DNA from: Rhodovulum marinum
GTDB lineage: Bacteria > Pseudomonadota > Alphaproteobacteria > Rhodobacterales > Rhodobacteraceae
DNA length: 64,000 bases
Assembly: GCF_004343075.1 (NCBI RefSeq)
Contig: NZ_SLXP01000008.1
Coordinates: 1 to 64,000 of the forward strand
Direction: 5' to 3'
The translations under genes were made by a program, and so were the position numbers. Position 1 is the first letter of the stretch. The number at the start of each line of letters is the position of its first letter. Of the stretch, positions 45,671-64,000 are shown in pieces. Under the pieces are notes generated by a model. That model was not told where the DNA came from and searched no databases. It saw only the letters and a list, made by a program, of their open reading frames with translations.

Positions 45671-46291
45671 ATGAATTTGCCCCCAAGGCAACGGCTTGGT
45701 GACCGCGGCGCGGGTTTCATGCCAGGCTCGCACAACTGGAGGTTGCGTCGCATCGCCCGGATCTTCGCATCCGAACGCCCCACCGGCCGCCGGCCCAAAC
45801 CCGCCGCGCCCGGCCGTGCGGCCCCCGGCGGCACGCTCGACGCGCTGCGCGACGCCGCCGGGGCCAGCCGCGCCACCCGCGATCTTGTTCAGCTTCAGGC
45901 CATGGCCGACGCGCTGCAACGCACCCCCGAAGAGGACGAGGAACTGCTTCAGGGCAAGGCCAGCGGCGCGTCCGGCCTGCCCACCCGGCTGCGCGCCGGG
46001 GTCGAACGCCTGTCGGGCCGCGACATGCGCGGGGTCAACGTCCACTACAACTCCCCCAGGCCTGCCGCGGTTCAGGCCCATGCCTTCGCCCGGGCCGCCG
46101 ACATCCACCTGCCCCCCGGCCAGGAGCGCCACCTGCCGCACGAGGCATGGCACATCGTCCAGCAGGCCGAGGGCCGCGTCGCGCCCACCGCCGAAATCGC
46201 TGGCCAACCGGTCAACGACGACGCGGGCCTCGAACGCGAGGCCGACGCGATGGGGGCCCGCGCACCGCAGGAAGGCAGCCGCCGGGGCTGA
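45671..46291 (+). CDS. eCIS-core (DUF4157) protein with HExxH motif
   Basis: The 206-residue protein contains the DUF4157 domain found across extracellular contractile injection loci: LPTRLRAGVERLSGRDMRGV, NVHYNSPRPAAVQAHAFARA and DIHLPPGQERHLPHEAWHIV, with the zinc-type HEAWH at 157-161 and a downstream LEREAD Glu. A segment at about 80-96 (LQRTPEEDEELLQGKA) is also typical. The role, metalloprotease, toxin leader or assembly factor, is unsettled. Start is uncertain between 45671 and 45719. It opens the eCIS locus. Confidence 0.88.
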   Translation: MNLPPRQRLGDRGAGFMPGSHNWRLRRIARIFASERPTGRRPKPAAPGRAAPGGTLDALRDAAGASRATRDLVQLQAMADALQRTPEEDEELLQGKASGASGLPTRLRAGVERLSGRDMRGVNVHYNSPRPAAVQAHAFARAADIHLPPGQERHLPHEAWHIVQQAEGRVAPTAEIAGQPVNDDAGLEREADAMGARAPQEGSRRG

Positions 46292-46320
46292 TCCGACCAC
46301 CCGCCTTGATTTACCAGACC

Positions 46321-46336
46321 AAGTAGTGCTCTACTT
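46321..46336. promoter_or_regulatory. Inverted repeat before the GluR0-like gene
   Basis: AAGTAG-TGCT-CTACTT is a perfect 6-base inverted repeat in an AT-rich patch 67 bases before the GTG at 46403. It could be an operator of the following block. Support is positional only. Confidence 0.3.
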
Positions 46337-46402
46337 CCGATTGCGCGCCGTTACCGATTTTCGCGGTCCCGCCAACGCCCTTGCGAAAGGGGCACGACGC
46401 CG

Positions 46403-47520
46403 GTGTCCGCCCGCTCTCCCGTCCCCGCCCTTCTGGCCCTTGTCCTGTCCGCTGCCGCCGCCTTCGCGCAATGCGGCCAGGCCACCCGCGATGTCGACGT
46501 GGTCGTGGCGATCCGCGATGCCCCGCCGTTTTCCGCGATGTCGCCCAGCGGTTTCGCCGAGGGGTTCGCGATCGACATCTGGACCTCGGTCGAACACGAT
46601 CTGATCTCCGAGGGTGCGATGACCGCGTCCGAAATCGTGCTCTGCCGCTCCATCGCCGAGCAGGAGGCCGCGCTGATCGACGGGTCGGTCGACGTGGTGA
46701 TCTCACCGCTGACCATCACCGCCCAGCGGATGCGCAGCTATGACTTCTCGTAACAATACCTGCCCTCGGGCCTGACGCTGGCCGTCCCCTCGACCAGCGC
46801 CATCGACTTTGCGAACGCGACCCGGGTGATCGTTCAGACCGTGACCCAGCCCGGCGTGGTCAAGGCGGTGCTGGTGTTCCTTCTGGTCAACCTGGTGCTG
46901 GCCGCGCTGATCCGGCTGGCGATCCGCCACGAGATGCGCGGCCGCGCGGGGCAGGGCGGCGTCGACGCGCCCGGCTGGGTGACCACCCTGCTCGAAGCGA
47001 TCGTCAGCACCTCGGGGCTCAAGGGGCTGGGCGACCGGTTCAACACGGTGCTGGGCCGACTGTTGGAAATCTTCATGGCCGTCGTCGGCACCGTCCTGTC
47101 GGCCACCATCTTCGGCGTGCTGACCTCGGCCTTCGTCGGCTCCATTGGGGCAAGTTCGACCGTGCCGCCCGAAACCTTGCCCGACATGCGCATCGGCACG
47201 CTGGAAGGGTCCACCGCCCAGCAATTCTTGATCGCGCAATACGCCGCGGCAGACCTGTCGCAAACCGGCGCCGTCTGCGTCCCCGCCGCGCAGGCCACCG
47301 AGGAGTCCGGCTGCCTGCTTTACCCCGGCTGGCCCGCCGCGGTGCAGGCCCTGGACAAGGGCGAGGTCGCGGCCGTTCTGGGCGACTGGATCGCGCTCAG
47401 CTACCTGTCGCGGCTCGACCGCTACAATGGCCGGATCGAGGTGCAATCGGGCGTCTACCTGAACGAACCCGATGGCTGGGCCGTCGCCCCCGACCGCCCC
47501 GCCTTGCGCGAAGGCGGCGA
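46403..47520 (+). pseudogene. GluR0-like receptor-channel gene with an ochre stop
   Basis: The frame starts at GTG 46403 with a signal peptide (VPALLALVLSAAAAFAQC), then a split solute-binding domain (DVDVVVAIRDAPPFSAMSP...). An in-frame TAA at 46751-46753 falls at YDFS*QYLPSGL, where one C-to-T change of CAA explains it. The same frame then continues with a membrane helix (VVKAVLVFLLVNLVLAAL), a pore-loop-like STSGLKGLGD, a second helix and the second half of the binding domain. This is the order of prokaryotic ionotropic glutamate receptors (GluR0), with SGLKGLGD in place of TVGYGD. The 3' end runs without a stop into a methyltransferase remnant. Confidence 0.7.
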
Positions 47521-47990
47521 CAGCGGGCGCCACCTGTTGCGGCTGCAGGGCCGGGCGGGGCGCGCGGCGGGCTATGACATCAGCCCCGGCGCGCTGAACC
47601 TGTTGCGCGCGCGGGCCGGGGCGGCGGCTTGGCATGACCTTGCGATCCTCGGCCCCGATCCGGGCGATCTGGATCGCCAACTGGCCGACTGCGGCCCCGC
47701 CGACCTGGTGCTGTGCCTGTTCGGCGTGCTGGGCCATATCGAAACGGCCCCCGCCCGGCAGGCGGCGCTGGCCCGGATGCGGCACGCGCTGAAACCCGGC
47801 ACCGGGCGGTTATTGATCTCGGTGCCGAACCGCCGCCGCGGGGTTCGGCCACGTGACGCTGCACCCCGAAAGCGTGCTGCCCGAAAGCTGGCTTTTGAAC
47901 CATGGCGCGCTGCGTTGGCTGGATGGGCTGCTGACCCCGCTTTGCCCCGCGGGGCTGGGCTATGGCATCCTCGCGGTGGCCGCGCCATGA
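47505..47990 (+). pseudogene. SAM-dependent methyltransferase remnant, fused upstream and frameshifted
   Basis: GRHLLRLQGRAGRAAGYDIS, LVLCLFGVLGHIETAPARQA and LKPGTGRLLISVPNRRR are motifs I (partial), IV-V and post-motifs of a class I methyltransferase. The N-terminus is missing, its frame being continuous with the GluR0-like gene. Near 47840-47850 (CGCGGGGTTCGG) the frame must move to reach GFGHVTLHPESVLPESWLLN and a proper stop at 47988, overlapping the next start (ATGA). I take it as a deletion-fusion remnant. The normal substrate is unknown. Confidence 0.6.
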
Positions 47991-49153
47991 GGTGGCTGAC
48001 CCTCCTGCTTCTGGCGTTGCTCTGGTGCGCCGCGCCCACGCCCGCCCAGCCGCAAGATACGCTGCGCGCGGAACTGCCCGCCGATCCCTCCGGGCGGCTG
48101 GCCCACATCCTGCGGCGCGGCACGCTGATCGTGGGGGTGAAATCCGACTATCCCCCCTGGGGCATGGTCGACCCCGACCCGGCCTCGGACGCCCTCGTGG
48201 GCATCGAGCCCGACCTTGCCCGCGACATCGCCGACCGTCTGGGCGTCGGCCTGAAACTCGTCTCTGTCACGGCCCGAAACCGTATCGGGCGGGTCAATGA
48301 CGGCACGGTCGACCTTGTGATCGCCACCATGGGCGACACCGCCGTGCGCCGCACCCAGGCCGACCTGATCCAGCCCAATTACTTTTCCTCGGGCGTGGTG
48401 GTCTATGGCCGCATCGATCTTGGCCTGTCCGGCTGGGACGCGCTGCGCGGCGCGCCGGTCTGCCTGACCCAGGGGGCCTATTTCAACCGCACGCTGGAAT
48501 GCGATTACGGGCTGAAGGGGCAATACTTTCCCGGCAACCGCGAGGCCCGGCTGGCGCAATTGGTGCTGGCCGAGCCCGACCCCGAATTCGGCGTGATCGT
48601 CCCCACCATCCTGAACGTGCCCTGGGCGATGGCCGTGGCGCAGGGAGAGGGGGACGGCGACTGGGGCCGCTTCCTGTCCGACACGGTGGGCGAATGGCAC
48701 GCCACCGGCCGCATCCTGCAGCTTCAGCGCGAGTGGGCGTCGGCGAGACCGCGTTCGTGCGCGCCCTGCACGACACATGGTCCCGCGTCGAGGATGGCCG
48801 CCCGGCCTGCGCGCACAATCCCGAAACCGGGCAGCCCCCGCCCGCCTGCCTGGTCCAGGCCAGCTTCAGCGCCGCCGCCCCGGTCGAGATGCCCCCCGGG
48901 CGAACGCCCTGCACAAGGCCACCGGCATCGACCTGCGCGTTCTTTTCGATGCCTATGACCGCGCGCGGCTGATGCGGGGCCTCGCCCTGACCGAACTGGT
49001 GTCGACGGTGAACACGCTGGTGTCCGAGGGCGGCGACACATCCACCCTGATGAACGGCCTTCTGGTGTTCTACTTCGTCTTCGTCCTGGGGGTGATCTGG
49101 CTCGTCGACCGGCTTAGCGCGCGGTTGCATACCGGGGGGGGGCGGCGAAATGA
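47987..49153 (+). pseudogene. Solute-binding protein with C-terminal membrane anchor, three single-base frameshifts
   Basis: The product starts with a signal peptide (MRWLTLLLLALLWCAAPTPA) and a type 3 amino-acid-binding domain (GTLIVGVKSDYPPWGMVD, LARDIADRLGVGLKLV, VDLVIATMGDT). Missing single bases at about 48735 (G3), 48892-48900 (C6G3) and 49134-49142 (G9) shift the frame 2 to 1 to 0 to 2. Restoring one base each gives a 389-residue protein with ETAFVRALHDTWSRVEDG, ANALHKATGIDLRVLFDAYD and a membrane helix FYFVFVLGVIWLV, ending in an ATGA overlap with the permease. The neat overlap supports the reconstruction. Confidence 0.7.
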
Positions 49154-49767
49154 TCGACGTCTTGATCGAACGCACCCCCTACCTCGCCGGCGGGTTCGTC
49201 CGCAACCTGCTGATCTCGGCGGTGTCGATGGGGCTGGGCACGGGCATCGGCGCCACGCTCGGCTGGCTGCGACATCACCGGTTCCGCGCAACGCTGCGCA
49301 CCGAGGACATGCTGACCAACCTTTGCCGCAACGTGCCCAGCTTCGTGCTCCTTTACTACATGGCCTTCATGCTGCCCGCGGAGGTGGAGATCGCGGGCCG
49401 TATCCTGGCCGTGCCGGTCTGGATCAAGGCGAACCTCGCGCTGACCTTCCCGGCCATCGGCTTCGCCTCGGACCAGGCGCTGGGCTATTTCCGCCAGCGC
49501 GCGAACGGCATCGCGGGCGCGGGCGAAACCTTCACCGTGGCCTGGAACCAGTATTTCCTGATCATCATCATGGCGTCCGCCACCGCCTCGGTGATCGGCG
49601 TCGACGAAATCGTGGGCCGCGCCAACATGGTCATCGCGCGCGACGACCGCCCGGTCTTCATGCTGGTGACCTACCTTTACGTGTCGCTCTGGTTCATCGG
49701 TGCGGGGCTTCTGGTGTCGCGCGGCACGCTGTGGGCCGTCCGCCGGCGCGGCCCCCGATTGACCTAG
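49150..49767 (+). CDS. Amino-acid-type ABC transporter permease-like protein
   Basis: The 205-residue protein has about five membrane helices and an N-terminus (ERTPYLAGGFVRNLLISAVS) typical of HisMQ-family permeases. The EAA loop that contacts the ATPase is weak (ANMVIARDDRPVF). No ATPase gene is in the window, so it may be orphaned or work with a distant ATPase. Intact frame. The ATG overlaps the reconstructed stop of the binding protein. The eCIS structural operon begins 80 bases later. Confidence 0.72.
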   Translation: MIDVLIERTPYLAGGFVRNLLISAVSMGLGTGIGATLGWLRHHRFRATLRTEDMLTNLCRNVPSFVLLYYMAFMLPAEVEIAGRILAVPVWIKANLALTFPAIGFASDQALGYFRQRANGIAGAGETFTVAWNQYFLIIIMASATASVIGVDEIVGRANMVIARDDRPVFMLVTYLYVSLWFIGAGLLVSRGTLWAVRRRGPRLT

Positions 49768-49817
49768 GGGCACAACGAATTCTTGCTTTTCTTTAGGGAA
49801 CTCTTACGCTGGTTGCA

Positions 49818-49846: not shown

Positions 49847-49915
49847 GTGAACGACCGAAACCCCGATGGTGCGGCCGGTGTGCCCCGCCCGTCGGCAATT
49901 CCCGGCCCGCCATGA
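49847..49915 (+). CDS. Possible 22-codon leader ORF of the eCIS operon
   Basis: A GTG at 49847 preceded by AGGGAGGGATCG opens a short frame (VNDRNPDGAAGVPRPSAIPG PP) whose TGA overlaps the DUF4255 start (ATGA). The ribosome site is the strongest in the area while DUF4255 has none of its own, so translation may enter here and pass on by coupling. It could instead be a true longer N-terminus joined by a missed base. Confidence 0.4.
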   Translation: MNDRNPDGAAGVPRPSAIPGPP

Positions 49916-50490
49916 TCGACAGCGCCCTCGGGCTGGTCGTCGCCCGCCTGAACGCGCATCTTTCGGCGCGCTACAAGGTGGCCGACGACCTGGTGGTGCT
50001 GTCCCCGCTGGCCGATGCCGAGGGCAAGCCCGCCGCCGAGGTGCGCAACCGCCTTGCGCTGTTCCTGATCAACATCGCCCATGACGCGACCCCCCGCCGC
50101 CCGCTGGCCCCCGCCGCGGGCCAGGTCGAGCGGGCGCCCCCGGTCCATCTCGACATCTATTTCATGCTGGCCTCGGGCCACGACCCCGACACCTATGGCG
50201 AGGGGCTGAAACTGATGTCGGCGGCCTTGATGTTCTTCCAGGCCACCCCGGTGATGACCCCGCAGACCACCCCCGAGATGCCCGAGGGCCTCGGCCAGCT
50301 TTCGGTCGAGATCTCCAACCTCCGGGTCGAGGAACTGGGCCAGCTCTGGGGCAACCTGGGCGGGCGCTACGTGCCGTCCGTGATGTTCAAGATGCGCTCG
50401 GTGATGATCGATTCCGGCGTCATCACCCGTGTCGTGCCGCTGGTCGAGAAACCCCGGGCCGGCGTCCAGCCCCGCAAGGAACGGGCCTGA
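49912..50490 (+). CDS. eCIS tube/sheath terminator protein, DUF4255 (Afp16/Pvc16-like)
   Basis: The 192-residue protein begins MIDSALGLVVARLNAHLSAR and contains RNRLALFLINIAHDAT and APPVHLDIYFMLASGHDP, the DUF4255 signature. In Afp and PVC particles this protein caps the distal end of the tube and sheath and sets particle length. Its stop and the next start overlap (TGATG), the pattern throughout the operon. Confidence 0.88.
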   Translation: MIDSALGLVVARLNAHLSARYKVADDLVVLSPLADAEGKPAAEVRNRLALFLINIAHDATPRRPLAPAAGQVERAPPVHLDIYFMLASGHDPDTYGEGLKLMSAALMFFQATPVMTPQTTPEMPEGLGQLSVEISNLRVEELGQLWGNLGGRYVPSVMFKMRSVMIDSGVITRVVPLVEKPRAGVQPRKERA

Positions 50491-51095
50491 TGGACTTCGC
50501 ACCGATCCTCTCTCTCGATCTCATGCACGCCTTCTACGGCGCATCGGTGCCGCCGATCCGGGTGGCCCCCGTCGACCCGGGGGCGTTCGCCCGGGCGGGG
50601 CTGGTCCTGCGGCAGACGGGCGGGCGCGCGATCCTCGCGGCCGAGACGGGCACCGACGACCGCCCCCGGACCGTGGCGCTGTCGCTTCAGGCGCTGGACC
50701 CCTCCGCGATCGGCGTCACCTGCCGGGCGGACAGGTCCACCATTCCCACCTGCGCGCTGCCGCTTGGACAGGACGAGGTCGCCTTTGACGGCCTGCCCGC
50801 CACCGAAACCCGGCAGCGCAAGGTCGGCGTCGAACTTGCCCGTCTCGACATCGCCCTGCCGCCCCGGGGAACCCGCGCCCTGCCCGACGGCACCCCGGCG
50901 CGGGTGCTGCGTTCGACCCGGCCCATCGCGGCGCGCGCGCGCCCGGACCGGGCCTTCGCGCTTCAACGACCGGGCCCGTCCGGCCCCGAGACGGTGATAC
51001 CAGTGCTTCCCGCAGCGGGGACGAGTTTCAGACCTGCCGATGAACCAGGCGGCGCTGCGCGCCTGCAATCCGACATCTTCGTCACCCTGTGGTAG
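50490..51095 (+). CDS. Unknown eCIS-operon protein
   Basis: I do not recognise this 201-residue protein. It starts MDFAPILSLDLMHAFYGASV and is beta-rich, with many Pro and Arg and no signal peptide or membrane helix. It lies between the terminator and sheath genes and overlaps both contexts closely, so a structural or assembly role in the particle is likely. The frame is intact to DIFVTLW. Confidence 0.75.
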   Translation: MDFAPILSLDLMHAFYGASVPPIRVAPVDPGAFARAGLVLRQTGGRAILAAETGTDDRPRTVALSLQALDPSAIGVTCRADRSTIPTCALPLGQDEVAFDGLPATETRQRKVGVELARLDIALPPRGTRALPDGTPARVLRSTRPIAARARPDRAFALQRPGPSGPETVIPVLPAAGTSFRPADEPGGAARLQSDIFVTLW

Positions 51096-51108: not shown

Positions 51109-53277
51109 ATGGTCATGAAAACCCCGGGCGTCTACGTCGTCGAGAAGAACGCCTTCCCCAATTCCGTCGTCCAGGTGGCCACGGCCGTTCCGGCCTTCAT
51201 CGGCCATACCCACAGGGCCAATAACGGCAACGTGCCGCTGCACATGACCCCCTGGCGCATCACCTCGATGTCGGAATTCCACACCTATTTCGGCGGCGCC
51301 CCGCACCCGGTCTTCAAGATCGTGCCCTACGATCCCGACGCGACGCCGGTCTCGCCCCTGTCCGACGACGGCGCGAACAAGCCCGCCGCGCTGCCACGCG
51401 CGACCTTCACCGCGCAGGGGCCGCGCGGCCCCGAGAAATACGAACTGGTCCAGACCAACACCGCCTATGCGCTCTATGGCGCGATGCGGCTGTTCTTCCA
51501 GAACGGCGGCGGGCCCTGCTATGTCGTCTCGATCGGCGGCTATGACGATCCGCTGGATGCCAACGCGATGATGACCGCGCTCGACCGGCTGAAAAAGGAA
51601 GCCGAGCCGACCATGGTGGTGATCCCGGAAACCACCCGCCTGACCCGGCAGAACAGCCAGAAGGTCCAGCAGGCGATGCTGGCCCATTGCGGCACGGTGA
51701 TGAAGAACCGCTTTGCCATTCTCGACATGTTCGCCGGCCACCTGTCGCAACAGGATCCGCTGGGAAACCCGGTGGCGCGCTTCCGCAACGATATCGGGAT
51801 CAACGACCTGGATTTCGGCGCGACCTATTACCCGTGGCTCAACACCTCGATCTACCAGTCGCGCGATTTCAGCTATGAAAACATCGACCCCGACAGCCGG
51901 CAAAAGCTGATCGCGCTGATGAAGCGCAGCGTCGGGCAGGTCACGGAACTGACCGAGGAAATCCGCCGGATCAGCGCGCCCGTGGTGGCGGGCGACTTCA
52001 CCATCTCGGTGCCCCGGGGCGGCACCGTCGCGGTCACCACCGCCGACATCTCGGCCCGCGACGACCAGAGCGCGGCGGCGGGCCTGACCTACACGGTCGA
52101 GGGCGACGCCGCCGCGATGGGCGGCACGGTCCAACTGGACGGCAACGCCGCCGACAGCTTCACCCAGGCGGACCTGGAGGCCGGCAAGGTCAGCTTTACC
52201 CATGACGGGCAGGCCAGCGCCGGCCGCTTCGACCTGGTCGTCACCGACGAAGGCGACATCGCCACCGACGCGCTGAAGATCGGGGTCGAGGTGGTCGGCG
52301 CCGTGATCGACGCCCCCGCCGTCGCCGCCCGGACCGCGGTGGAAATCGACGTCCCCGCCGATCACCCCGACGGCGACAAGGCCACGGTCAGGCTGGTCGA
52401 TGCCGACGACGACACCGGCAAGACCCGCACCGTGCCCGAGATCGGCACCTGGAAGGTGGCCAAGACCGGCAAGGTCAGCTTCACCCCCGAAACCACCTTT
52501 GCCGGGCCGGAAACCCGCGCGAGTTACACCATCGAGGTCAACGGCGCCCCCACCGCCCCGAACACGCTGCGCGTGCTGATGTCGGGCGTGCCCACCGCCG
52601 AACGCCAGGGCGGCCCCTCGCCCGCGACCATCGACAAGACGCTGCGCGCCGTGGTGCCGATGTATGGCGACGTGATGAACGAGATCACGGCGCTGATGAA
52701 CACCATGCCGCCCGCCGCGGCGATGGCGGGCATCTACACCATGGTCGACAACACCCGCGGCGTCTGGAAGGCCCCGGCGAACGTCTCGCTGAACTCGGTC
52801 GTCTCGCCGCGCCTGAACATCAGCCACGAGGAACAAGAGAACCTGAACGTCTCGACCACCGGCAAGTCGATCAACGCCATCCGCCCCTTCGTGGGCGAGG
52901 GCACGCTGGTCTGGGGCGCGCGCACGCTGGACGGCAACAGCCTGGACTGGCGCTACATCAACGTGCGCCGGACCATGATCATGATCGAGGAATCGATCCG
53001 CCTGGCGTCCAAGGCCTATGTCTTCGAACCGAACACCGCGAACACCTGGGTCACCATGCGCTCGATGATCGAGAATTTCCTGACCTCGGTCTGGAAACAG
53101 GGCGGCCTGGCCGGCGCCACGCCCGAGGATGCCTTCAGCGTCCATCTGGGACTGGGCGAAACGATGACACCCGTCGACATCCTGGAAGGGATCCTGCGGA
53201 TCACCGTCCTGGTCGCCGTGACGCGGCCCGCGGAATTCATCGAGATCACGTTCCAGCAGCAGATGCAGAAATCCTGA
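51109..53277 (+). CDS. Contractile sheath protein with a large inserted Ig/CSPG-like domain
   Basis: The 722-residue protein has the N-terminal sheath fold (TPGVYVVEKNAFPNSVVQVA, TAVPAFIGHT, FFQNGGGPCYVVSIGGYDD) and the conserved C-terminal sheath domain (ISHEEQENLNVSTTGKSINA, WRYINVRRTMIMIEESI, AEFIEITFQQQ). Between about 290 and 490 lies an extra module (FTISVPRGGTVAVTTADISA, DSFTQADLEAGKVSFTHDG) resembling CSPG/cadherin-like beta-sandwich repeats, followed by a second beta segment. Family sheaths are usually 350-500 residues. In known sheaths this middle zone is on the outer surface. GAGGAG lies 7 bases before the ATG at 51109. Contraction of the sheath drives the tube. Confidence 0.93.
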   Translation: MVMKTPGVYVVEKNAFPNSVVQVATAVPAFIGHTHRANNGNVPLHMTPWRITSMSEFHTYFGGAPHPVFKIVPYDPDATPVSPLSDDGANKPAALPRATFTAQGPRGPEKYELVQTNTAYALYGAMRLFFQNGGGPCYVVSIGGYDDPLDANAMMTALDRLKKEAEPTMVVIPETTRLTRQNSQKVQQAMLAHCGTVMKNRFAILDMFAGHLSQQDPLGNPVARFRNDIGINDLDFGATYYPWLNTSIYQSRDFSYENIDPDSRQKLIALMKRSVGQVTELTEEIRRISAPVVAGDFTISVPRGGTVAVTTADISARDDQSAAAGLTYTVEGDAAAMGGTVQLDGNAADSFTQADLEAGKVSFTHDGQASAGRFDLVVTDEGDIATDALKIGVEVVGAVIDAPAVAARTAVEIDVPADHPDGDKATVRLVDADDDTGKTRTVPEIGTWKVAKTGKVSFTPETTFAGPETRASYTIEVNGAPTAPNTLRVLMSGVPTAERQGGPSPATIDKTLRAVVPMYGDVMNEITALMNTMPPAAAMAGIYTMVDNTRGVWKAPANVSLNSVVSPRLNISHEEQENLNVSTTGKSINAIRPFVGEGTLVWGARTLDGNSLDWRYINVRRTMIMIEESIRLASKAYVFEPNTANTWVTMRSMIENFLTSVWKQGGLAGATPEDAFSVHLGLGETMTPVDILEGILRITVLVAVTRPAEFIEITFQQQMQKS

Positions 53278-53297: not shown

Positions 53298-53756
53298 ATG
53301 GCAGATGACGGTTCCGCCCAGTCGCAGACGGTATGGCCGCTCCCCAAGTTCTATTTCCAGGTGAAATGGGACGACACCGAACTGGCCTTCCAGGAGGTCT
53401 CCGGGCTCGACATCGAATCCGAGCCGATCGAGTATCGCGCCGGCAACAGCAAGGTGTTCTCCAAGGTCAAGATGCCGGGGATGCTGAAATCCTCGAACAT
53501 CACCATGAAAAAGGGCGTTTTCGCCACGGACAACGCGATCTTCGACTGGTTCAACGAGATCAAGATGAACACCATCAAGCGCAAGGCGCTGACGATCTCA
53601 CTGCTCGACGAAGGGGGCAACCCGACCATGGTCTGGAAGGTCCGCAACGCCTTCCCGGTCAAGATCACGGGCACCGACCTCAAGGCCGAGGGCAACGAGG
53701 TCGCGGTCGAAAGCATCGAGATCGCGCATGAGGGCTTCACCATCGAGAACGCCTGA
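53298..53756 (+). CDS. Inner tube protein (Afp1-like, T4 gp19 family)
   Basis: The 152-residue protein forms the hexameric tube. Visible family features are PLPKFYFQVKWDDTELAFQE, VSGLDIESEPIEYRAGNS, MKSSNITMKKG-type turn (LKSSNITMKKGVF) and VKITGTDLKAEGNEVAVES. A strong GGGAGG precedes the start. It is the main tube subunit by position, right after the sheath. Confidence 0.93.
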   Translation: MADDGSAQSQTVWPLPKFYFQVKWDDTELAFQEVSGLDIESEPIEYRAGNSKVFSKVKMPGMLKSSNITMKKGVFATDNAIFDWFNEIKMNTIKRKALTISLLDEGGNPTMVWKVRNAFPVKITGTDLKAEGNEVAVESIEIAHEGFTIENA

Positions 53757-55083: not shown

Positions 55084-56850
55084 ATGGCCGACAGCCCCAC
55101 CCTAGACGCCGACGGCCCGATCGGCATCACCATCAAGACCGACGGCGCCGCGATCCCCGACACCGCGCAGGTGGCCTCTGTGCGCATCCGGCGCGAGGCG
55201 AACCGCATCCCCGAGGCACAGGTCATCCTCGAAACCGGCTCGATCCCCGGGCAGGACTTCGGCGACGTGGACGGCACCGCCTATGCCATCGGCAAGGACA
55301 TCACCATCGCCGCCCATTACGGCAGCGGCGACCCGGCCACGCTGTTTTCCGGCGTGATCGTCGCGCAGCGGCTGCGCATCGCCGAACCGCGCGGGCCGCG
55401 TCTGGAACTGTTGTGCCGGGACAAGGCCATCGCGCTGACCCGCGGGCGCAAGTCGGCGCTTTACGCCCAGATGAAGGACAGCGACATCATCGCCCGGATC
55501 GCCTCCGACACGGGGCTGACGGCAGATGCCACCGCCACGCCCGACACCGCCCGCGACCAGCTGCGCCACCACGCGACCGACTGGGATTTCCTGCGCGCGC
55601 TGGCCGACCGCAACGGCCACCTGGTGCTGGTCGACGCGGGCAAGATCACGACCGGCCCGCCCGACACCTCTGCCGCGCCCGTCCTCACCCTGACGCTGGG
55701 CGAGGACATCATCGAATTCGACGCCGCCGCGAATACCGAGGGGTTGTATGCCACCGCCCGCGGCCTGGGCTGGGACGACACCGCGAAAGACACGGTCGAG
55801 GGGCAGGGCGGCGCGCTGCCCGCGCTGACCTGGGGCAACCAGACTGCCACCGGGCTGGCCGAGGTCCCGGCCAAGCGCGAACACCTGTTCACCACGCCCA
55901 ACCGGCTGGACGCCGCCGAGATCGAGACCATGGCAAACAGCCGTCTGATGCGCGCGTCGCTCTCCGCGCTTCAGGGCCATTGCAGCTTCCAGGGCAGCGG
56001 CAGGGTGGCCCCCGGCGACATGGTCGAATTGAAAGGGCTGGGCGCGCATTTCGGCGGCACCGCCTATGTCTCGGGCGTCACCCAGGTGATCGAGAACGGC
56101 GACTGGACCACCCGCGCCCATCTCGGCCTGCCCGAGGACTGGCTGACCGACGCGCCCGGCCCGGGCGGCGGGTTCGCCGCCGGGATCACCGCCCCGATCC
56201 ACGGGCTGCACATCGCCACCGTCCTGCAAATCCACGAAGACCCCGACGCGCGGCTGCGGATCAAGGTCGAACTGCCGCTGATCGGCGACCAGCCCGCCCA
56301 GGTCTGGGCGCGCATCGCCCAGCCCTATGCCTCGGGCGGGGCCGGCATCCAGTTCATGCCCGAAATCGGCGACGAGGTGGTGATCGCCTTCCTCAACTCC
56401 GACCCGAACGGCCCGGTGATGGTCGGCGCGCTGCATAACGGCCAGACCGACCAGCCGCACACCCCCGACGCGGAGAACACGCTCAAATCCATCGTCACCC
56501 GCGAACAGCTGAAAATCCAGTTCGACGACGACAAGAAGATCATCACCATCGAAACCCCCGGCGGGCACAGCGTCACGCTGGACGACGACGCCAAGACCGT
56601 GACGATCAAGGACACCACCGGCAACACCGTCGAACTGTCCGAAAGCGGCATCAAGATGGACAGCCCCAAGGACATCACCATCTCCGCCGCCGGCAATATC
56701 GACATCACCGCGTCGGGCGACGCCACGCTCTCGGGGATGAACGTCACCGCCAATGCCGACATGCAGATGACCGCCAAGGGCGGCGCGGCGGCGGAACTTT
56801 CCGCTGGCGGGCAGACCACCGTCAAGGGCGCCATGGTGATGATCAACTGA
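55084..56850 (+). CDS. VgrG-like central spike protein (Afp8-like)
   Basis: The 588-residue protein combines a gp27-like hub (residues 1-360), an OB-fold of gp5 type (VLQIHEDPDARLRIKVELPL, IGDQPAQVWARIAQPYASGG, IQFMPEIGDEVVIAFLNSDP), and a beta-helix needle with repeated D/T/I strands (TVTIKDTTGNTVELSESGIK, DITISAAGNIDITASGDAT). It forms the trimeric spike that pierces the target membrane. GAGGT lies 5 bases before the start. Confidence 0.93.
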   Translation: MADSPTLDADGPIGITIKTDGAAIPDTAQVASVRIRREANRIPEAQVILETGSIPGQDFGDVDGTAYAIGKDITIAAHYGSGDPATLFSGVIVAQRLRIAEPRGPRLELLCRDKAIALTRGRKSALYAQMKDSDIIARIASDTGLTADATATPDTARDQLRHHATDWDFLRALADRNGHLVLVDAGKITTGPPDTSAAPVLTLTLGEDIIEFDAAANTEGLYATARGLGWDDTAKDTVEGQGGALPALTWGNQTATGLAEVPAKREHLFTTPNRLDAAEIETMANSRLMRASLSALQGHCSFQGSGRVAPGDMVELKGLGAHFGGTAYVSGVTQVIENGDWTTRAHLGLPEDWLTDAPGPGGGFAAGITAPIHGLHIATVLQIHEDPDARLRIKVELPLIGDQPAQVWARIAQPYASGGAGIQFMPEIGDEVVIAFLNSDPNGPVMVGALHNGQTDQPHTPDAENTLKSIVTREQLKIQFDDDKKIITIETPGGHSVTLDDDAKTVTIKDTTGNTVELSESGIKMDSPKDITISAAGNIDITASGDATLSGMNVTANADMQMTAKGGAAAELSAGGQTTVKGAMVMIN

Positions 56851-56863
56851 AAGGACCGACCCC

Positions 56864-57154
56864 ATGCCCCCCGCCGCCCGCCTGACCGACATGCACACCT
56901 GCCCCGCCGCGAACGGCCCCGTGCCCCATGTCGGCGGCCCCATCGTCGGCCCGGGCGAACCGACCGTGCTGATCGCCGGGATGCCGGCGGCGGTAATGGG
57001 CGACACCTGCACCTGCGTCGGCCCGCCCGCCACCATCGTCAAGGGCTCGTCCACGGTGATGATCGGCGGCAAGCCCGCCGCACGGATGGGCGACAGCACC
57101 GCCCATGGCGGCAGCATCGCCACCGGCGCACCCACCGTGTTGATCGGGGGCTAG
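56864..57154 (+). CDS. PAAR-domain spike tip (Afp10-like)
   Basis: The 96-residue protein is one PAAR domain: PPAARLTDMHTCP, PHVGGPIVGPGEPTVLIAGM, PAAVMGDTCTCVGPP, VMIGGKPAARMGDSTAHGG. His and Cys residues fit a zinc-bound cone that sharpens the VgrG tip. There is no C-terminal toxin extension, so cargo must be loaded otherwise. It directly follows the spike gene. Confidence 0.93.
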   Translation: MPPAARLTDMHTCPAANGPVPHVGGPIVGPGEPTVLIAGMPAAVMGDTCTCVGPPATIVKGSSTVMIGGKPAARMGDSTAHGGSIATGAPTVLIGG

Positions 57155-57157: not shown

Positions 57158-57591
57158 ATGGCGCGCGACGATCCGTCTTTCCTGGGGCGCGGCTGGGCCT
57201 TCCCCCGGCCTTCGACGGGCGCAGCGGGCGGCCCGCCCTGGTCGAGGCCGAGGACGACATCGCCGAAAGCCTGCGCATCCTGATGGGCACGCGCCCCGGC
57301 GAACGGGTGATGCAGCCCGATTACGGCTGCCGGTTGCACGATCTGGTCTTCGACCCCATGACCGCCGAGACCGAGGCCGAGATCGAGGTCGCGATCACCC
57401 GCGCGATCCTGTTCTTCGAACCGCGCATCGTGCTGAATTCGGTCCAGGTCGCCGACGACTGGCGCGCGGGCACCCTGCGCATCCGGCTGGAGTTCCGCGT
57501 GCGCTCGACCAATGCCCGGCACAACCGCGTCTTCCCGTTCTACCGCACCGAGGGCACGCTGATCTCCGCCCCGCCAGAGCCGGGGACGTGA
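57158..57591 (+). pseudogene. gp25-like baseplate protein (Afp9-like) with one missing C
   Basis: The start (MARDDPSFLGRGWAFP) at 57158 and the body (EDDIAESLRILMGTRPGERV, MQPDYGCRLHDLVF, RIRLEFRVRSTNARHN) are in different frames. Adding one C to the C5 run at 57202-57206 gives a smooth WAFPPAFDGRSGRPALVEAE and a 144-residue GPW/gp25 lysozyme-related wedge protein of normal size. As sequenced only an internal GTG or ATG start (for example 57283) could yield the domain. Essential for baseplates in other systems. Confidence 0.82.
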
Positions 57592-57779
57592 TGGCAGGGG
57601 GCGGCAGCACGCCGATGGGCAAGGGCCGCGAGGTGCCCGAGATCCGCTCCGCCTTCGAAAGCGCGCTGTTCGGCACCAAGGGACAGGCGGGACCGCCCCG
57701 CCGCTTCGGCGGCGCCTTCCTGGTGCAGGGCGACGCGGGCACGATCACCGGCGTGTTCCTGTCCGGCGAGGGGGGCTGA
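57591..57779 (+). CDS. Small eCIS-operon protein
   Basis: A 62-residue Gly-rich protein (GKGREVPEIRSAFESALFGT, GGAFLVQGDAGTITGVFLSG) starting by TGATG overlap with gp25. I do not recognise it. Position between gp25 and baseplate J and its intact frame suggest a small structural or chaperone part. Confidence 0.65.
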   Translation: MAGGGSTPMGKGREVPEIRSAFESALFGTKGQAGPPRRFGGAFLVQGDAGTITGVFLSGEGG

Positions 57780-57847: not shown

Positions 57848-60800
57848 ATGCCTGACCCCTGGCCCCAGATGCGCGTCTCGCCCGGCGCGCGGGCCGATGC
57901 CCGGCTTCCCGCGGCGCTCGACCCGATCGCGCTCCGGGTGCGCCCGGCGACGCTGGCCGAGGATTTCGCCGCCGCCGGTCGCCGGCTGGGGGCCGAGGTG
58001 CCGCCGCTGGCCCGCCTGTTCCTGGACGAACCGGCCTACCTGCTGGCCGAGATCCTGGCCTTCCGCCCCGAGGATGCCGAACAGGCCTTCGACATCGCGC
58101 TTGACAAGGCGCCCGAAACCGCGCCCGCCCTGGTCCGCGCGCTGGCGCTGCGGCTGGGCGACTGGGTCGCGCGGATCAAGGCGCGGCTTCCGGGGTTGTC
58201 GGATGCGCGCCCCGCGCGGGTGATGCAGGCGGTGCTGACGGGGGCGCCCGGCGCCGACCGCGCCGCCGCCACGCCCGCCGACCCGCTGGCCCGCCTGCAC
58301 CTTGCCACCGCCCGGCTGCGCAGCACGCACGCACTCCTGCGCAACGCCGTGGCCAGCCTGCAACCCGCCGCCGCCCGCACCTTCGAGGCGCGGCTCGCCT
58401 CGGCCGGATCGACCCGGCGCTGGGCCTCTTGCTGGCCGAACTGACGGCCGCCCGCGACATCGACGCCGCGATGAACACCTTCGCCGCCTGGCACATGCGG
58501 TTCTATTACGGCCAGATCATCGGCCAGCACCCCCGCCCGGCCAGCCGCGAAAGTGTGCTGTTGCACCTGCCGCCCAGCGCCCGGCCCACCCATATCGCCC
58601 AGGGCACGCCCCTGCGCGCCCGCACCGCCGACGGCACGGTCCAACGCTTCATCACCGAAACCCCGGTCAGCGTCAGCCCCGCCCGCGTCGCCTCGACCGC
58701 GGTGCTGGTCTATGACACCGACCCGAAAATCTCGTTCAACGCCGCGCTTGCGGGCATCACCGACATCCGCGCGGCCCGCTATCCGCCGGGCCCACGCCCG
58801 ACCCCGATACGCCCGACCCCGAGGTGGTGCTGGCCCTGCGTTCCGATCCCGAATTGCTGGCCGCCTTCGGGCTGGACGGCAACAAGGCCCGGCTTGATGC
58901 CATCGCGCGCGAGGTGGGCGCGCTGGCCGCAAACCGCGGCGCCCGCCCGTCACTGGCCCTGCTTTACGAGGTGCTGGCCCGCAACGTGCTGGACCTCGAC
59001 CCGCTGCGGGTTCTCTTGGGCCGGATCGTCGCGCTGGCGCTGGTCGAACGCGAACCCCTGCCCGAAGGCGCCTATTGGGACATGCTGCAATCCAAGATCG
59101 ACACCTGCCGCGACCGGCTGGGCGCGCAGACCGCGGACGGCTCCAGCGCCTCGATGATCTTCGAAACCTTCGCCCGCACCCCGGACGGGCGGCTGGTCTA
59201 CACGCTGGACGACATCTTCCAGAAACTGCTGGGCGATGCTTTCACCCTGCGGCTGACCACCCCCGCCGGCCCTCGCGCCGCGACCTGGACCCAGATCCTG
59301 CCCCATGCCGAGCCGGGCGCGGGCGGGCTGTGCTTCCGGATGAAGCTGGATGCCGCGCGGCCCCCCGTCACCGCCCCCGAGGGCGCCGAGGCGCCGGTGC
59401 TGTCGATCCGCGCCGCCGACAGCGCGCGGATTTGCCCGGTCTCGATCTTCGAACGCTACCGCGTCACCGCCATCGGCTTTTACGTGCGCGCCGAGGGGCT
59501 GACCGATGTCTTCGCCTTTTCCGATGCCGGGCCGGTCGCCACCGACCAGACCTTCCTGCCCTTCGGGCCGCGCCCTGTGGACGGGGCCAGTTTCACCATC
59601 GGCGCGTCAGAACTGGCGCGCAAGCCGGTCACGGAAATCGGCCTGGGGCTGACCTGGGCCGCCCTGCCCGGTGCGGGCGCGGGCTTTGGCGCGCAGTATC
59701 GCCACTATCCCGACATCGACGCGCTGCCCAACCCCAAGCTGCGCGTCGACTACCTGGGCGGCGAGGGCTGGACCGCCTTGACCGAGGCGCCGGTGCCGGG
59801 CCAGCCGGTGCCCGCCGCCGCCCCCGTCACGCCCCGGGAATTCCGCTCGCGCCAGACGATGCGCGCGGGCGCGGTGCGGCTGACGCTGTCAGGCACGGCG
59901 GACGGGTTCCATGCCGGGCGCTACCCGCTGGCGCTGGTCCGCGCCATGCGCACCCAGCGCCTGCCCTTCGTCCAGCGCCCGGTGCCGCCCGAACCCTTCG
60001 TGCCGCGCGCGGCGGGCCTGACGCTGTCCTATGCCGCCGCCGACCGGATCGAGCTGAACGCCCCCGACACCGCCGATCCCGGCGAACGCGCCGTGCAGGT
60101 CTCGCCCTTCGGCCGGGTCGAACTGTTCCCCCGCCGCACCCGGCCCGAAGTGACCCTGTTCCCGCCCCGGCTGGGCTATGGCCACTTGTTCATCGAACTC
60201 GACGGCCCGCATGCCACCGGCCCGCTGGCTCTGTTGTTCGACATCGCCGCAAGCGGGCACCTGCGGCTGGTGCCCGACCCCAACCCCATCGCCTGGTTCT
60301 ACCTGACCGCCGCGGGCTGGGCCGCGCTGCCCGCCACCGCCGTCCTGTCGGACAGCACCGCGGGGCTGATGCGCTCGGGGCTGGTGATGATCGACCTGCC
60401 CGAGGACGCCGCCCGCAACGCCCCCGACATGCCGGGCAAGGGCGTCTGGATGGCCGCGGTGGCCACCCGACCGGGCCTCGATGCCTTTCCGGCGCTGTCG
60501 ATGGTCGCGACCAACGGCCTGCGCGTGATCCGCGCCGAGGATGGCACCCGGCCCGCCCCCGATGGTCCCGCCCGCGCCTGGAGTTTCGAGACACCCCGGC
60601 CGGGGCTGGGCGCGATGCGCGAAATCGCCCTGCCCGCCGCGATCCGCCCCCCCGAGACCGACCGCCACTACATCGCCCGCGTCTCGGAACGGCTGCGCCA
60701 CCGCAAGCGCGCGGTCACCCCCTGGGACATGGAACGCATGGTGCCGGAGGAATTCCCCGAGGTCTGAATGGCGAATGCCTGCCGCACCTGACCCGGCACC

Positions 60801-61435
60801 GGCCCGGCCCCACCCCGGGCGAGGTGACGCTGGTCGCGGTGCGCCGCGCACCCGAAACGGGCACCGGGACCTGGGCGCCCCGCGCGCATCTCTTCGACGT
60901 CAACACCCTGCGCCGCATCCGCGACTTCCTGGCCGCCCACGCCCCCGGCTTCGCCCGGATCGAGGCGGTGAACCCCGCCTTCGAGCGGCTTCAGGTGCGG
61001 GCCACGCTGGCCTTCGACGCGTTCCGCGATGACGGCGCGATGGCCCGCCGCGTGAATGCCGAGATCGCCCGCTATCTTTCCGTCTGGACCGCGCCGCCCG
61101 CCATGGCCCGCTTCGGCTGGTCGCTGAACGCCCGCGCGCTCTGCGCCCATATCGAGGCGTTCGATTTCGTGCGCGGCGTCACCGATTTCTCGGTGCTGCA
61201 CCTGTCGGGCGACGACGACGGCACCTATGCGCTGCTCGATACCGCGCAGTCGGACGGGCGCGGCCCGCACGGCCCCGCGATCCGCCCCGCCCGGCCCTGG
61301 AGCCTGCCGCTCTCGGTGCGCGACCACGCGCTGGCCACCGCGCCCGAGATCCGGCCCGAAGACCCGGTCCAAAGCGGCATCGGCCGGCTTTCCATCGGCG
61401 ACATGTTCATCGTGCGGCAAAGGACGAACCCGTGA
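57848..61435 (+). pseudogene. Baseplate J-like protein (Afp11-like), three single-base frameshifts
   Basis: Four consecutive frames together encode one large baseplate wedge: 57848-58405 (AALDPIALRVRPATLAEDFA), then IDPALGLLLAELTAARDIDA to about 58788, then DPDTPDPEVVLALRSDPELL to 60763, and LNGECLPHLTRHRPGPTPGE to 61435. Each junction is solved by adding one base: about 58401-58408, 58788-58793 and 60764 (tc to tcc). The restored product is 1,196 residues, a plausible size for an Afp11-type protein. The stop overlaps the next start (GTGA). As sequenced no full product can be made. The start at 57848 has GGGAAAG upstream; 57812 is an alternative. Confidence 0.8.
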
Positions 61436-62292
61436 CAAAACAGGATCGCACCACCCTCAAGTCCTTCTTCCGCGATGGCGCGCTGCCCACCGCCGAACAT
61501 TTCCGCGACCTGATCGACAGCGGCGTGAACCAGGTCGAGGACGGCTTTGCCAAGACCCCCACCGACGGGCTGAAACTGACCTCGGTCGGCGCCTCGCTTC
61601 GGGTGACCAGCCTGTACCAGGGCCTGTCCAGCCCCGCGCCCTCCTGGGTGATCGACCACGGCGACACCGCCGACGGGCAGGACCCCGGCGCGCTGCAGTT
61701 CCGGCCGATGTGGGGCGACACCCCGCCCCCGCCCGACACCGACCCCGGCGCGCCCGCCTCGCACGGGCTGTGCCTGACGCGCGACGGACGCGCGGGCGTG
61801 AACGTGGCCGATCCGCTGTGGCGGCTGGACGTCGGCGGCGTGGCGCGGATGGCGGGCCGCGTGGGCGTCGCCACCGACACCATTCCCGACATCCCCGCCG
61901 ATGGCGACTGGCACGACATCACCCCGGCGCTGACCGGCTGCCAGGCGTTCGAGGTGATGGCCGGCGCCGGCGGCGAGGTGACCGAGGGGCGCTATGCCCT
62001 GCTGCACGCCATCGCGATGAACGCCTACCACCCGCGCAACCCGATCCTGAACTGGCTGTTCGGGCGGCGGCGCATCCGCGCGCAGACCGCCGTCTACGGC
62101 AGCTATGCCGACCGGCTGCGCCTGCGCTGGGTGGCGGGCGATGAACGCCACCATTTCCGCCTGCAACTGCGTTCCAACGCCGATTACGGCGCGTGCAAGC
62201 GCATCCGCTATTACCTGACCCGGCTGTGGTTCGATACCCGGATGGAGGGCGCGCGCAGCCCCCGCACCGACCTTGACGAGGGCCTGCTGTGA
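61432..62292 (+). CDS. eCIS fibre- or baseplate-associated protein
   Basis: The 286-residue protein starts TLKSFFRDGALPTAEHFRDL IDSGVNQ-like, a pattern I associate with baseplate-attached fibre proteins of eCIS loci. The middle (LTRDGRAGVNVADPLWRLDV, GGVARMAGRVGV) resembles tail-fibre or S74-associated heads, and the C-terminus (FEVMAGAGGEVTEGRYALLH, RLRWVAGDERHHF) is a beta-rich domain. Receptor binding is possible but not shown. GTG start in a 4-base overlap; its own stop overlaps the next GTG. Confidence 0.72.
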   Translation: MTKQDRTTLKSFFRDGALPTAEHFRDLIDSGVNQVEDGFAKTPTDGLKLTSVGASLRVTSLYQGLSSPAPSWVIDHGDTADGQDPGALQFRPMWGDTPPPPDTDPGAPASHGLCLTRDGRAGVNVADPLWRLDVGGVARMAGRVGVATDTIPDIPADGDWHDITPALTGCQAFEVMAGAGGEVTEGRYALLHAIAMNAYHPRNPILNWLFGRRRIRAQTAVYGSYADRLRLRWVAGDERHHFRLQLRSNADYGACKRIRYYLTRLWFDTRMEGARSPRTDLDEGLL

Positions 62293-63947
62293 CCGACCCG
62301 ACCCCGCCCGATTTCGCCCCCCTGCGCGAACGCGGCATCCGCGCCGCCCAGGACGCCTCGGGCGAGGTCTGGACCGATTACAACCTGCACGACCCCGGCG
62401 TGACGCTGCTGGAACAGACCTGCTTCGCGCTGACCGAGGTCGGTTATCGCAACGCCCACCCGGTGCGCGACCTGCTGACCGGGCCGGACGACACGCTCGA
62501 CCACGACGCCGCCGGTCTGTTCGACCCGGCCCGGATGCTGCCCACCGCGCCGGTGACCGAACAGGACCTCGCCGCCGCGATCACCCGGTCCGACCGCATC
62601 GCTTGCGCCGTGGTGCTGCGCAGCGGCCACAAGGGGCTGTACGAGGTGCGGGTGATCCCCGAACCCGACCCGAACGATCCCGACCCCGACGCCGCCGACG
62701 CCGCCGCCCTGGCCGAGGCGACGCGCATCTTCCGCGAGAACCGGCCGCTCTGCTGCGATCTGGATGCGGTGCGGGTCAGCCGCCGCCGCCCGGTGCGCCT
62801 GACCGGCGAGGTGGCGATCACCCCCACCGCCGCGCCCGAACGCGTGGTCGCCGAGATCCTGTATCGCGTCGGCGCGCTGCTGCGCGGCCAGGCCGATCCC
62901 GCTGGCGACGACCGGAAAGGTCCGGCGCGACGGGCGGTGGCGCGGCTTCGACCGGCCGCCGGTCGACACGCTTTTACCGATGATCTACCGCACGCCCGGC
63001 GCACCACCGCCGCCGGTCCCGCGCCGCCCCACCGCCGGATCGAGGTGCTGGACCACCTGATCGCGCTGCAGGGCGAGGAAATGCCCGCCACCCGCCACAC
63101 CGGCCTGCACCATTACCGCAGCCGCGCCGAACGCGAACGGGCCGAGATCGACCGGCACATCACCTTCCTGCGCGCGCTGCCCGACGCCAATTTCGCCCGC
63201 AGCACCGCCCCCCATGGCACCCGCGCGGGCGGCTTCCTGGCCAAGCTGGCCCTCTTGGCCGACCTGCGGGTGGCGCAGGGCGGCGACCTGGCCGGGCCGA
63301 TGGCCGCCTTGGGCCTGGCGCTCGACCCCGACGCCTGCCCGCCCGACCCGGCGCTCGACCGCGCCGACCTGCCCGCTTCCGGCGATCCGATGGCCCTTCT
63401 GATGCCCCGCGACCCCACCGCGCCGCCGCTCGTGGACGAGGCGCTGCTGATCGCCTCGCCCTTCGTGGCGGAGGGCCGCATCGCGCCCGCGCTTTTCACC
63501 CGCGCCGCCGATCCCGCCGCCTATCTCGTGGCCCCCGACGGCGCGGGCGGGCACCGCGTGCTGTTCGACCCGGGCACGGGGCAGGGGCTGTATCCCTGCG
63601 GCCAGCTCCCCCGCCGGGCCGGGGCCGACCTGTTGGCCAACCGGTTGCGGAACGGCTGGCGCGCCCTGCACGAAAGGTGCGAGGGGCTTTATCTGGTCGA
63701 GGACATCCTGCTGCGCGCCCGCACCCAGGGGTTCGCCCCCCATGTCGCCGCCCTCGTGCTGACCGGCTGGACCGCCCGAACCGCGCGCCCCGATTTCCGC
63801 GCCCATGTCGAGGCGCTGGTCGCCCGCCTGTCCCCCGCCCATGTGCTGATCCGTCCGCTCTGGCTGGGGCTGGACCAGATGGCCCGTCTCGACCGCGCCG
63901 CCGCACGGCTCGACGCGCGCAACGTGGTCCGCGAGGCGCAGGCATGA
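62289..63947 (+). CDS. Baseplate protein (Afp12-like)
   Basis: The 552-residue protein begins with the Afp12/Pvc12 pattern VWTDYNLHDPGVTLLEQTCF ALTEVGYRN and later has IEVLDHLIALQGEEMP and GFAPHVAALVLTGWTARTAR, LSPAHVLIRPLWLGLDQM. It would close the baseplate wedge around the spike. Between about 62915 and 63030 another frame (DGRWRGFDRPPVDTLLPMIY) looks more protein-like than the open one, hinting at a pair of compensating indels. The stop overlaps the next ATG (ATGA). Confidence 0.82.
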   Translation: MTDPTPPDFAPLRERGIRAAQDASGEVWTDYNLHDPGVTLLEQTCFALTEVGYRNAHPVRDLLTGPDDTLDHDAAGLFDPARMLPTAPVTEQDLAAAITRSDRIACAVVLRSGHKGLYEVRVIPEPDPNDPDPDAADAAALAEATRIFRENRPLCCDLDAVRVSRRRPVRLTGEVAITPTAAPERVVAEILYRVGALLRGQADPAGDDRKGPARRAVARLRPAAGRHAFTDDLPHARRTTAAGPAPPHRRIEVLDHLIALQGEEMPATRHTGLHHYRSRAERERAEIDRHITFLRALPDANFARSTAPHGTRAGGFLAKLALLADLRVAQGGDLAGPMAALGLALDPDACPPDPALDRADLPASGDPMALLMPRDPTAPPLVDEALLIASPFVAEGRIAPALFTRAADPAAYLVAPDGAGGHRVLFDPGTGQGLYPCGQLPRRAGADLLANRLRNGWRALHERCEGLYLVEDILLRARTQGFAPHVAALVLTGWTARTARPDFRAHVEALVARLSPAHVLIRPLWLGLDQMARLDRAAARLDARNVVREAQA

Positions 63948-64000
63948 GCACGGCGCACCCGTCCCCCCGGCCCGTGGCGCCCGGCCCGCGCCACCGCATC
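63944..64000 (+). CDS. Start of the next eCIS-operon gene (cut by window end)
   Basis: ATG at 63944 overlaps the Afp12-like stop and opens a frame MSTAHPSPRPVAPGPRHRI that continues past the window. Too little is present to name it. By order in Afp/PVC loci a further baseplate, tape-measure, ATPase or cargo gene may follow. Confidence 0.5.
   Translation, partial: MSTAHPSPRPVAPGPRHRI

Follow-up and report, generated by a model that had tools for sequence, protein, structure and literature searches.

The window analysed here is the whole stretch of 64,000 nucleotides that forms the start of contig C8 (204199 bp) in the 3.95 Mb genome of Rhodovulum marinum (G000). It holds most of an Afp/AlgoCIS-like extracellular contractile injection system (eCIS) cluster that spans 45671 to ~69415, where the DXP synthase gene (dxs) then starts on the opposite strand; judged from its broken genes, this copy is very probably a decaying one and not a working syringe. 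Within it, positions 46403-49767 represent a mostly broken receptor/permease cassette, homologous to intact genes inside the eCIS loci of relatives. A first-pass annotation of the window had assigned 45671-64000 to an eCIS; the assignment holds, but the cassette inside it went unmentioned and the cluster runs on past the window. On balance, we favour the explanation that this is a decaying Rhodobacterales eCIS whose relatives carry the cassette as an amino-acid-sensing control module; these relatives have an intact gene for a receptor akin to the glutamate sensors of animal nerves, a hint that machines of this kind may answer to amino acids from outside.

Decay of the eCIS cluster

Pfam and homology confirm that this Rhodobacterales genome has a locus of the eCIS type. 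The core structural genes lie together in a single cluster, as genes or as pieces, and in the same order as in relatives. Pfam profiles named eCIS_core, Pvc16_N, the sheath, gp19 (twice), CIS_tube, base_V, PAAR, gp25 and AAA, and the DUF5908-type, baseplate J and Afp12-like genes were identified solely via homology to relatives (Table 1). Capsid, portal and terminase families gave zero matches among the 30 cluster-region open reading frames (ORFs) scanned, and a tailed prophage is ruled out by this lack of head genes, as the first-pass annotation had also held. All the genes that it had listed are present, but the cluster is not complete: baseplate J falls in four frames and the Afp12-like gene carries a deletion. 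Beyond 64000, where an ATPase had been predicted, we found both a tape-measure and an AAA ATPase gene; both are broken, although an ATPase missing from the flank, which had been named as grounds for rejection, is not literally what was seen.

The decay was assessed by tblastn of 22 genes, each a single ORF in the relatives G221, G075 and G294, against the window's contig; chance tape-measure matches near 50444, 57575 and 62192 were disregarded. Twelve genes are open, gp25 is doubtful at its start, and nine are damaged: the channel, methyltransferase, substrate-binding protein (SBP)-permease, ~300-residue, baseplate J, Afp12-like, tape-measure and ATPase genes and the final gene of the cluster, which encodes a membrane protein (LAST). 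The damage comprises frameshifts, stops and deletions, the Afp12-like deletion remaining in frame. For comparison, the methyltransferase has 262-263 aa and baseplate J is one ORF of 1238-1326 aa in the three relatives, while the SBP-permease has 533, 564 and 551 aa and the tape measure 1091, 1012 and 1438 aa in G221, G075 and G294 respectively (CIS_TMP, 164 bits in G221). With nine of 22 genes damaged, no intact gene set able to build a particle is present, and we therefore reject the annotation as an intact secreted eCIS.

It is highly improbable that the eCIS is intact and that its broken frames stem from faults in sequencing or assembly. It is true that 12 of the 22 genes are open, sheath and tubes among them, and that a single frame change, such as that of the ATPase, could come from one wrong base. 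However, several genes have had stretches deleted that are tens to hundreds of residues long, and the flanks behave differently. For this control, 105 flank proteins of >150 aa, taken from three genus-mates, were compared with a 102 kb part of the contig. Of these, 23 found no match and 4 stayed under 50% identity, which left 78 counted queries, corresponding to 35 distinct window genes at a coverage of at least 0.87. None of the 78 was split over two frames. As far as tested, only the insert thus contains breaks, which points to decay and not to bad sequence, and assembly error was rejected on this control. The earlier claim that the locus makes secreted particles is not supported: the genes for baseplate J, the tape measure and the ATPase are all broken, while 78 of 78 flank queries run in one frame.

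Two further loci of the lineage are reduced. Cereibacter ovatus (L018:10001-12000), another decaying member, has lost tube 2, the DUF5908-type gene, the adaptor and the first part of the spike gene. At L012:10001-10459 there is a lone tube-1 gene, 84% identical, with the other eCIS reference genes absent within 10 kb on either side.

A receptor/permease cassette associated with eCIS loci

In relatives the cassette comprises four genes, each a single ORF in G221, G075, G218, G294 and G369. They encode a GluR0/ionotropic glutamate receptor (iGluR)-like receptor channel, a methyltransferase, a fusion of SBP and permease (SBP-permease) and a further permease (perm2). In G221 the channel gene begins 13 bases past eCIS_core, and each of the four overlaps its cassette neighbour by 1-4 bases. 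A collection scan with tube 1 returned 169 relatives, including 24 Rhodobacterales-named loci (L008-L030, L079) that are 82-89% identical in tube 1; 80 of the 169, these 24 and 56 others, were taken as the locus set. Within the locus DNA of the 24, the channel was found in 12 and perm2 in 12; L014, L027 and L028 end at or near the cassette's place and are not scorable, and for L029 the channel lies outside the locus stretch but in its genome, G369. In the 56 other loci neither channel nor perm2 was found at E<=1e-5.

Across 390 Rhodobacterales genomes, the channel family occurs in 13 (E<=2.5e-124), CIS_tube in 25 and both in 12. The thirteenth channel genome, G263 (L018), has the sheath and tube 1 and lacks tube 2, the adaptor and part of the spike; all 13 channel genomes therefore carry eCIS genes. 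By genome, 13 of 13 fall within the 26 eCIS genomes of 390 (hypergeometric P 1.6e-17), and by genus, 5 of 5 within 13 of 139 (P 3e-6), both tests ignoring descent. Perm2 is present in 11 of the 13, with a weak match elsewhere in G141. The channel lies ~5-9 kb from the adaptor in 10 of 12 genomes and 25 kb from it, still inside the cluster, in G369; in G239 the distance is 76 kb on a contig with overlapping ends, and ~9 kb across the junction. That contig (C6, 85347 bp; L100, L101) has ends that share 77 bases, so the eCIS and cassette of G239 seem to sit on a circular replicon of ~85 kb. On the 85355 bp contig C8 of G221 (L088), the upstream genes look ParA/ParB-like by eye. In a plasmid collection of 72,556 records the channel query gave one distant partial match, and the tube 1 query 77 records, the best 63% identical.

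In wider genome sets, with up to four candidates scored per genome of the class and phylum, matches to the channel are remote except in G000: four of 385 genomes of the class (E 3e-19 to 1e-11), six others among 398 genomes of the phylum (E 2e-22 to 3e-16, all partial), two of these six being the Rhodobacterales genomes G009 and G021, and one partial match (E 2e-17) among the 20 genomes behind other eCIS loci.

In a tree of six concatenated eCIS proteins from 32 loci, from which L012 with only its tube-1 gene was left out, G369/L029 with its full cassette is basal in the Rhodobacterales group, and the channel was not seen in a clade made up of L019, L079 and L021-L024. Channel and eCIS distances are correlated over 15 loci, the window's broken piece being one of them (Mantel r 0.885, 0 of 9999 permutations). 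The cassette is thus associated with eCIS loci and diverges in step with them. Tree and distances fit an old cassette with later losses, and do not separate function from shared descent. Neutral hitch-hiking, with a single capture close to the lineage's base and persistence through linkage, would agree with the single lineage involved, and shared descent alone can yield linked divergence; yet the cassette stays with the cluster despite differing gene order (L018, G369), its genes are single ORFs in the five genomes named above, and the channel motifs described below are kept in 10 of 10 rows. We regard hitch-hiking as quite unlikely and consider that the cassette is probably a functional part of the eCIS.

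The receptor channel

In relatives the channel has the architecture S1-TM-P-TM-S2 (TM, transmembrane; P, pore region), with an SBP_bac_3 match spread over residues 34-383; in 10 of 10 rows, by hydropathy only, a ligand-binding domain is split by two TM helices and a P region. In the same 10 rows PLT(I/V)TxxR comes first and GDW last, and between them RTxxL(K/R)G is framed by two hydrophobic segments. PLTxTxxR corresponds to the glutamate-contacting motif of animal AMPA receptors. K+ channels carry TVGYG at the pore, and this filter is absent from the channel rows. When searched as a profile against solved structures, the channel matched 4zv1, an ancestral amino-acid-binding protein, followed by 2pyy and 1iit (GluR0), with other binding proteins and, via the S2 half, NMDA-receptor chains lower in the list; a sequence relation to known iGluRs is therefore present, and Pfam Lig_chan-Glu_bd stays under its cut-off. 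Altogether, these features suggest a channel that retains an iGluR-type amino-acid pocket and has no K+ filter. The window's copy is also without the pore arginine (STSGLKG).

Prokaryotic glutamate receptor channels without the filter are described as Group 2 in the excerpted text of Ger et al. 2010 (PMC2950845). As presented there, GluR0 and Group 2 share with the channel the S1-TM-P-TM-S2 order and an agonist-type motif, and Group 2 also the missing K+ filter; unlike them, the channel considered here is encoded in eCIS clusters and has the conserved RTxxL(K/R)G pore motif.

The channel is encoded beside eCIS_core, a domain linked to cargo, which would suit a channel that is itself cargo or that gives the producer immunity. 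Against this, the three channel proteins checked have a hydrophobic start and further hydrophobic stretches inside, which fit export to the producer's own membrane, and the channel is accompanied by permeases and a methyltransferase. We hold the cargo or immunity role to be very unlikely.

Permeases without a docking loop

Perm2 resembles TIGR01726, below its cut-off. As a single protein it found no solved structure at E<=10, and as a profile it reached 4yms_D at E 0.23. The EAA loop is the docking site of the ATPase on permeases of the ATP-binding cassette (ABC) type. In alignments with the permeases L121, L122 and L123 of the same genome as reference, a segment of ~20 residues with the EAA motif is missing in 8 of 8 rows, namely four of the 10 perm2 and four of the 9 SBP-permease sequences (L121_2 and L125 not counted). 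No ABC ATPase gene was seen in the cassette gene lists of G221, G075, G218, G294 and G369. Neither mark of a polar amino-acid ABC importer, EAA loop or ABC ATPase gene, is thus found in the rows aligned and the cassettes listed, and we reject that identity for the permeases on the missing docking loop.

An amino-acid uptake system that merely travels with the eCIS, with no role in the machine, would account for the SBP_bac_3 domains that Pfam finds in cassette proteins, for the sub-threshold likeness of perm2 to TIGR01726 and for the failure to find the cassette in genomes of genus g4. However, such a system sits badly with the missing loop and the lack of an ATPase gene in the five cassettes, with the channel being kept alone in L008, L009 and L011, and with a cassette found solely alongside eCIS; we consider it unlikely. 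Instead, permeases without a docking loop, together with an amino-acid pocket without K+ filter, suggest that the set is a sensor or gate rather than an ATP-driven importer.

The channel, SBP-permease, perm2 and LAST had no match in PADLOC. For the methyltransferase it returned mad2 and a type II methyltransferase, which we read as generic methyltransferase likeness.

LAST and the proposed control of the machine

LAST has ~1084-1133 aa and is the final gene of the cluster in relatives. The three proteins checked display an N-terminal hydrophobic stretch and three more near the C terminus, and no Pfam family was over cut-off in the two proteins scanned. As a profile, LAST matches the solved structure 9r9a_B (E 7e-17). 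Of the 26 Rhodobacterales genomes with an eCIS, 17 have a member of its family (A4). Among 20 other eCIS genomes, 19 have one at E<=0.001, counted genome-wide and not per cluster, some matches being weak (weakest best match 1.5e-6). Since this membrane protein is conserved in relatives, free secretion would be no more than a possibility for intact members too.

We infer sensing, gating and coupling to the machine from the gene content and motifs described above. The cassette module would be located in the inner membrane of the producer and would sense an outside amino acid through two membrane proteins with predicted amino-acid-binding domains, and an ion flux or conformational signal from it would control particle docking, firing or release, perhaps with LAST acting alongside. 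An amino-acid-gated trigger of the eCIS is a plausible, if tentative, proposal. The fuller version, a contractile injection system (CIS) lineage wired to an iGluR-type channel and an ATPase-free, permease-derived membrane complex so that an outside amino acid triggers or licenses the machine, is rather speculative.

Several observations weigh against this reading. A close channel homologue is absent in 20 of 20 other eCIS genomes, and the channel was not found in four eCIS genomes of genus g4, which carry LAST; therefore the machine as such needs no channel. L008, L009 and L011 keep the channel without permeases, while G009 and G021, Rhodobacterales with no CIS_tube match, have a distant partial relative of it (E 6e-19 and 8e-19). 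Seven of the 13 channel genomes belong to one genus (g24), so the genomes are not independent, and the permutation test leaves shared ancestry in. Besides, the ancestral amino-acid-binding protein outscores GluR0 in the profile search, and the channel searches of 390, 385 and 398 genomes scored at most four candidates per genome, so that absences are not proof.

Gene content and insertion site

Table 1. Features of the eCIS cluster and its flanks (positions refer to the window, or to contig C8 where marked)
Feature	Position	Strand or location	Evidence
Left flank gene, epimerase-like, intact	44795..45646	+	flank comparison with genus-mates
eCIS_core (DUF4157-type), open	45671..46291	+	PF13699 34 bits; 45-62% to relatives
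GluR0/iGluR-like receptor-channel gene, broken: in-frame stop at 46751, C-terminal end lost	46403..47524	+	homology to intact relatives
Methyltransferase gene, broken: two frames; 47-57 residues gone at the N terminus and 31-43 internally	47483..47987	+	Pfam, tblastn
SBP-permease fusion gene, broken: 2-3 frames, >100 residues gone	47993..49145	+	Pfam, tblastn
perm2, second permease-like gene, open	49150..49767	+	TIGR01726 37.6 bits, under cut-off 42.2; alignment
Pvc16/Afp16-type gene (Pvc16_N; DUF4255 of the first-pass annotation), open	49912..50490	+	PF14065 106 bits
Conserved gene, role not assigned, open, 201 aa vs 238-245 in relatives	50490..51095	+	homology
Sheath gene, open, with cadherin/Ig-like inserted stretch	51109..53277	+	Pfam; best solved relative 9r9h_T, 600 bits
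Tube protein 1, open	53298..53756	+	PF06841 (gp19) 166 bits
Tube protein 2, open	53756..54214	+	PF06841 (gp19) 133 bits
DUF5908-type gene, 57 residues, open (name from the first-pass annotation)	54214..54387	+	homology only
CIS_tube adaptor, open	54391..55080	+	PF19266 147 bits
VgrG-like spike (base_V), open	55084..56850	+	PF04717 75 bits
PAAR tip, open	56864..57154	+	PF05488 94 bits
gp25, mostly open, start region doubtful	57178..57591	+	Pfam names 57283-57591; tblastn
Remnant (18-20%) of ~300-residue gene	57594..57770	+	tblastn
Baseplate J, broken: frames 3>2>1>3, ~40-74 residues gone near 58790-58820	57848..61432	+	homology
Conserved 286-residue gene, role not assigned, open	61432..62292	+	homology
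Afp12-like gene, open, ~130-195 internal residues deleted (552 vs 721-733 aa)	62289..63947	+	homology
Tape-measure gene, broken: both ends can be recognised, most of the middle is gone, frame stops at 64459	63944 to C8 66151	+	homology
AAA ATPase, broken (frame change)	C8 66155-67377	past window	Pfam AAA fragment 66856-67377
Membrane protein LAST, broken (five pieces)	C8 67392-69412	past window	homology
Right flank gene dxs (DXP synthase)	C8 69419-71344	opposite strand, past window	

The cluster sits between the epimerase gene and dxs, and both flanks match DNA of genus-mates that have no eCIS. In two genus-mates without the insert the epimerase-dxs gap is ~50 bases (G312) and ~40 bases (G354), so the eCIS is either a ~23.8 kb insert in the window strain or was cleanly lost from the genus-mates. 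A third genus-mate, G280, has 8.2 kb of other genes between epimerase and dxs and no CIS_tube match in its genome. This other DNA (L115, contig C12 of G280) indicates that the site gained or lost DNA more than once.

Some features of individual genes deserve mention. The cadherin/Ig-like insert of the sheath covers residues ~296-480; the sheath has 526 residues in the basal relative L029/G369 and 720-770 in most others, some starts being uncertain. The eCIS_core protein of L103/L102 (G218) has 523 aa, with a long C-terminal extension that contains hydrophobic stretches, against 176-265 aa in G221 and G075. The 281-residue gene that follows baseplate J had zero solved relatives at E<=0.01. Finally, the same genome carries a second, different eCIS on the minus strand of contig C4 (205101-228906; L005, L006), where the genes for sheath, gp19 tube, Pvc16_N, AAA ATPase, eCIS_core, base_V and gp25 and a pair of Baseplate_J genes all have open frames.

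Relation to known systems and significance

The cluster shares with Afp, PVC, AlgoCIS and the Anabaena tCIS the sheath, tube, adaptor, spike, PAAR, gp25, baseplate J, tape measure, AAA ATPase and a Pvc16-type gene, and differs from them in that the copy described here is broken, in its one sheath gene with an Ig-like insert, in the receptor/permease cassette and in LAST. The best solved relatives of sheath, baseplate J and LAST are found in a group of CIS entries (9r9a, 9r9h, 9r9i, 9r9n, 9rce), 9rce_A being the best solved match of baseplate J from G221; the solved sheath (9r9h) has 519 aa, compared with 722 here. As LAST, sheath and baseplate J best-match 9r9a, 9r9h and 9rce, these five entries, with neighbouring codes, look like one solved CIS; the literature search found no paper naming 9r9a, 9r9h or 9rce.

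In the excerpted text of PMC12237407, CisA of the Streptomyces coelicolor CIS is a membrane protein without which the CIS does not fire, and its periplasmic domain is similar to substrate-binding domains. As far as that excerpt describes it, CisA is a precedent for SBP-like membrane control of a CIS, the likeness being by published description only; it is bitopic, belongs to another CIS lineage and has no channel or permease partners described there. Among the papers listed by searches of the open-licence literature, none was seen to connect a CIS with a glutamate-receptor-like channel, a connection that may be in print elsewhere. Excerpts of PMC8213781, PMC12923769 and PMC10598620 do not mention Rhodobacter, Roseobacter or transporter, and some of them also not channel or methyltransferase; the excerpt of PMC12210884 uses 'channel' for the tube only and does not mention Rhodobacter, Roseobacter or transporter.

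Gene names alone would label the locus of the window a syringe, when it is very probably a decaying remnant of one. What triggers CIS docking, firing or cell exit is a long-standing open question. If the proposal is true, a receptor channel that is encoded in the CIS gene string and has an amino-acid pocket that can be recognised would offer a concrete, testable input signal, and chemosensory input would be built into a CIS gene cluster. It would also represent an unusual use of iGluR-like channels and of ABC permeases stripped of the ATPase docking loop, and would echo, in a distant lineage, the SBP-like periplasmic domain of CisA.

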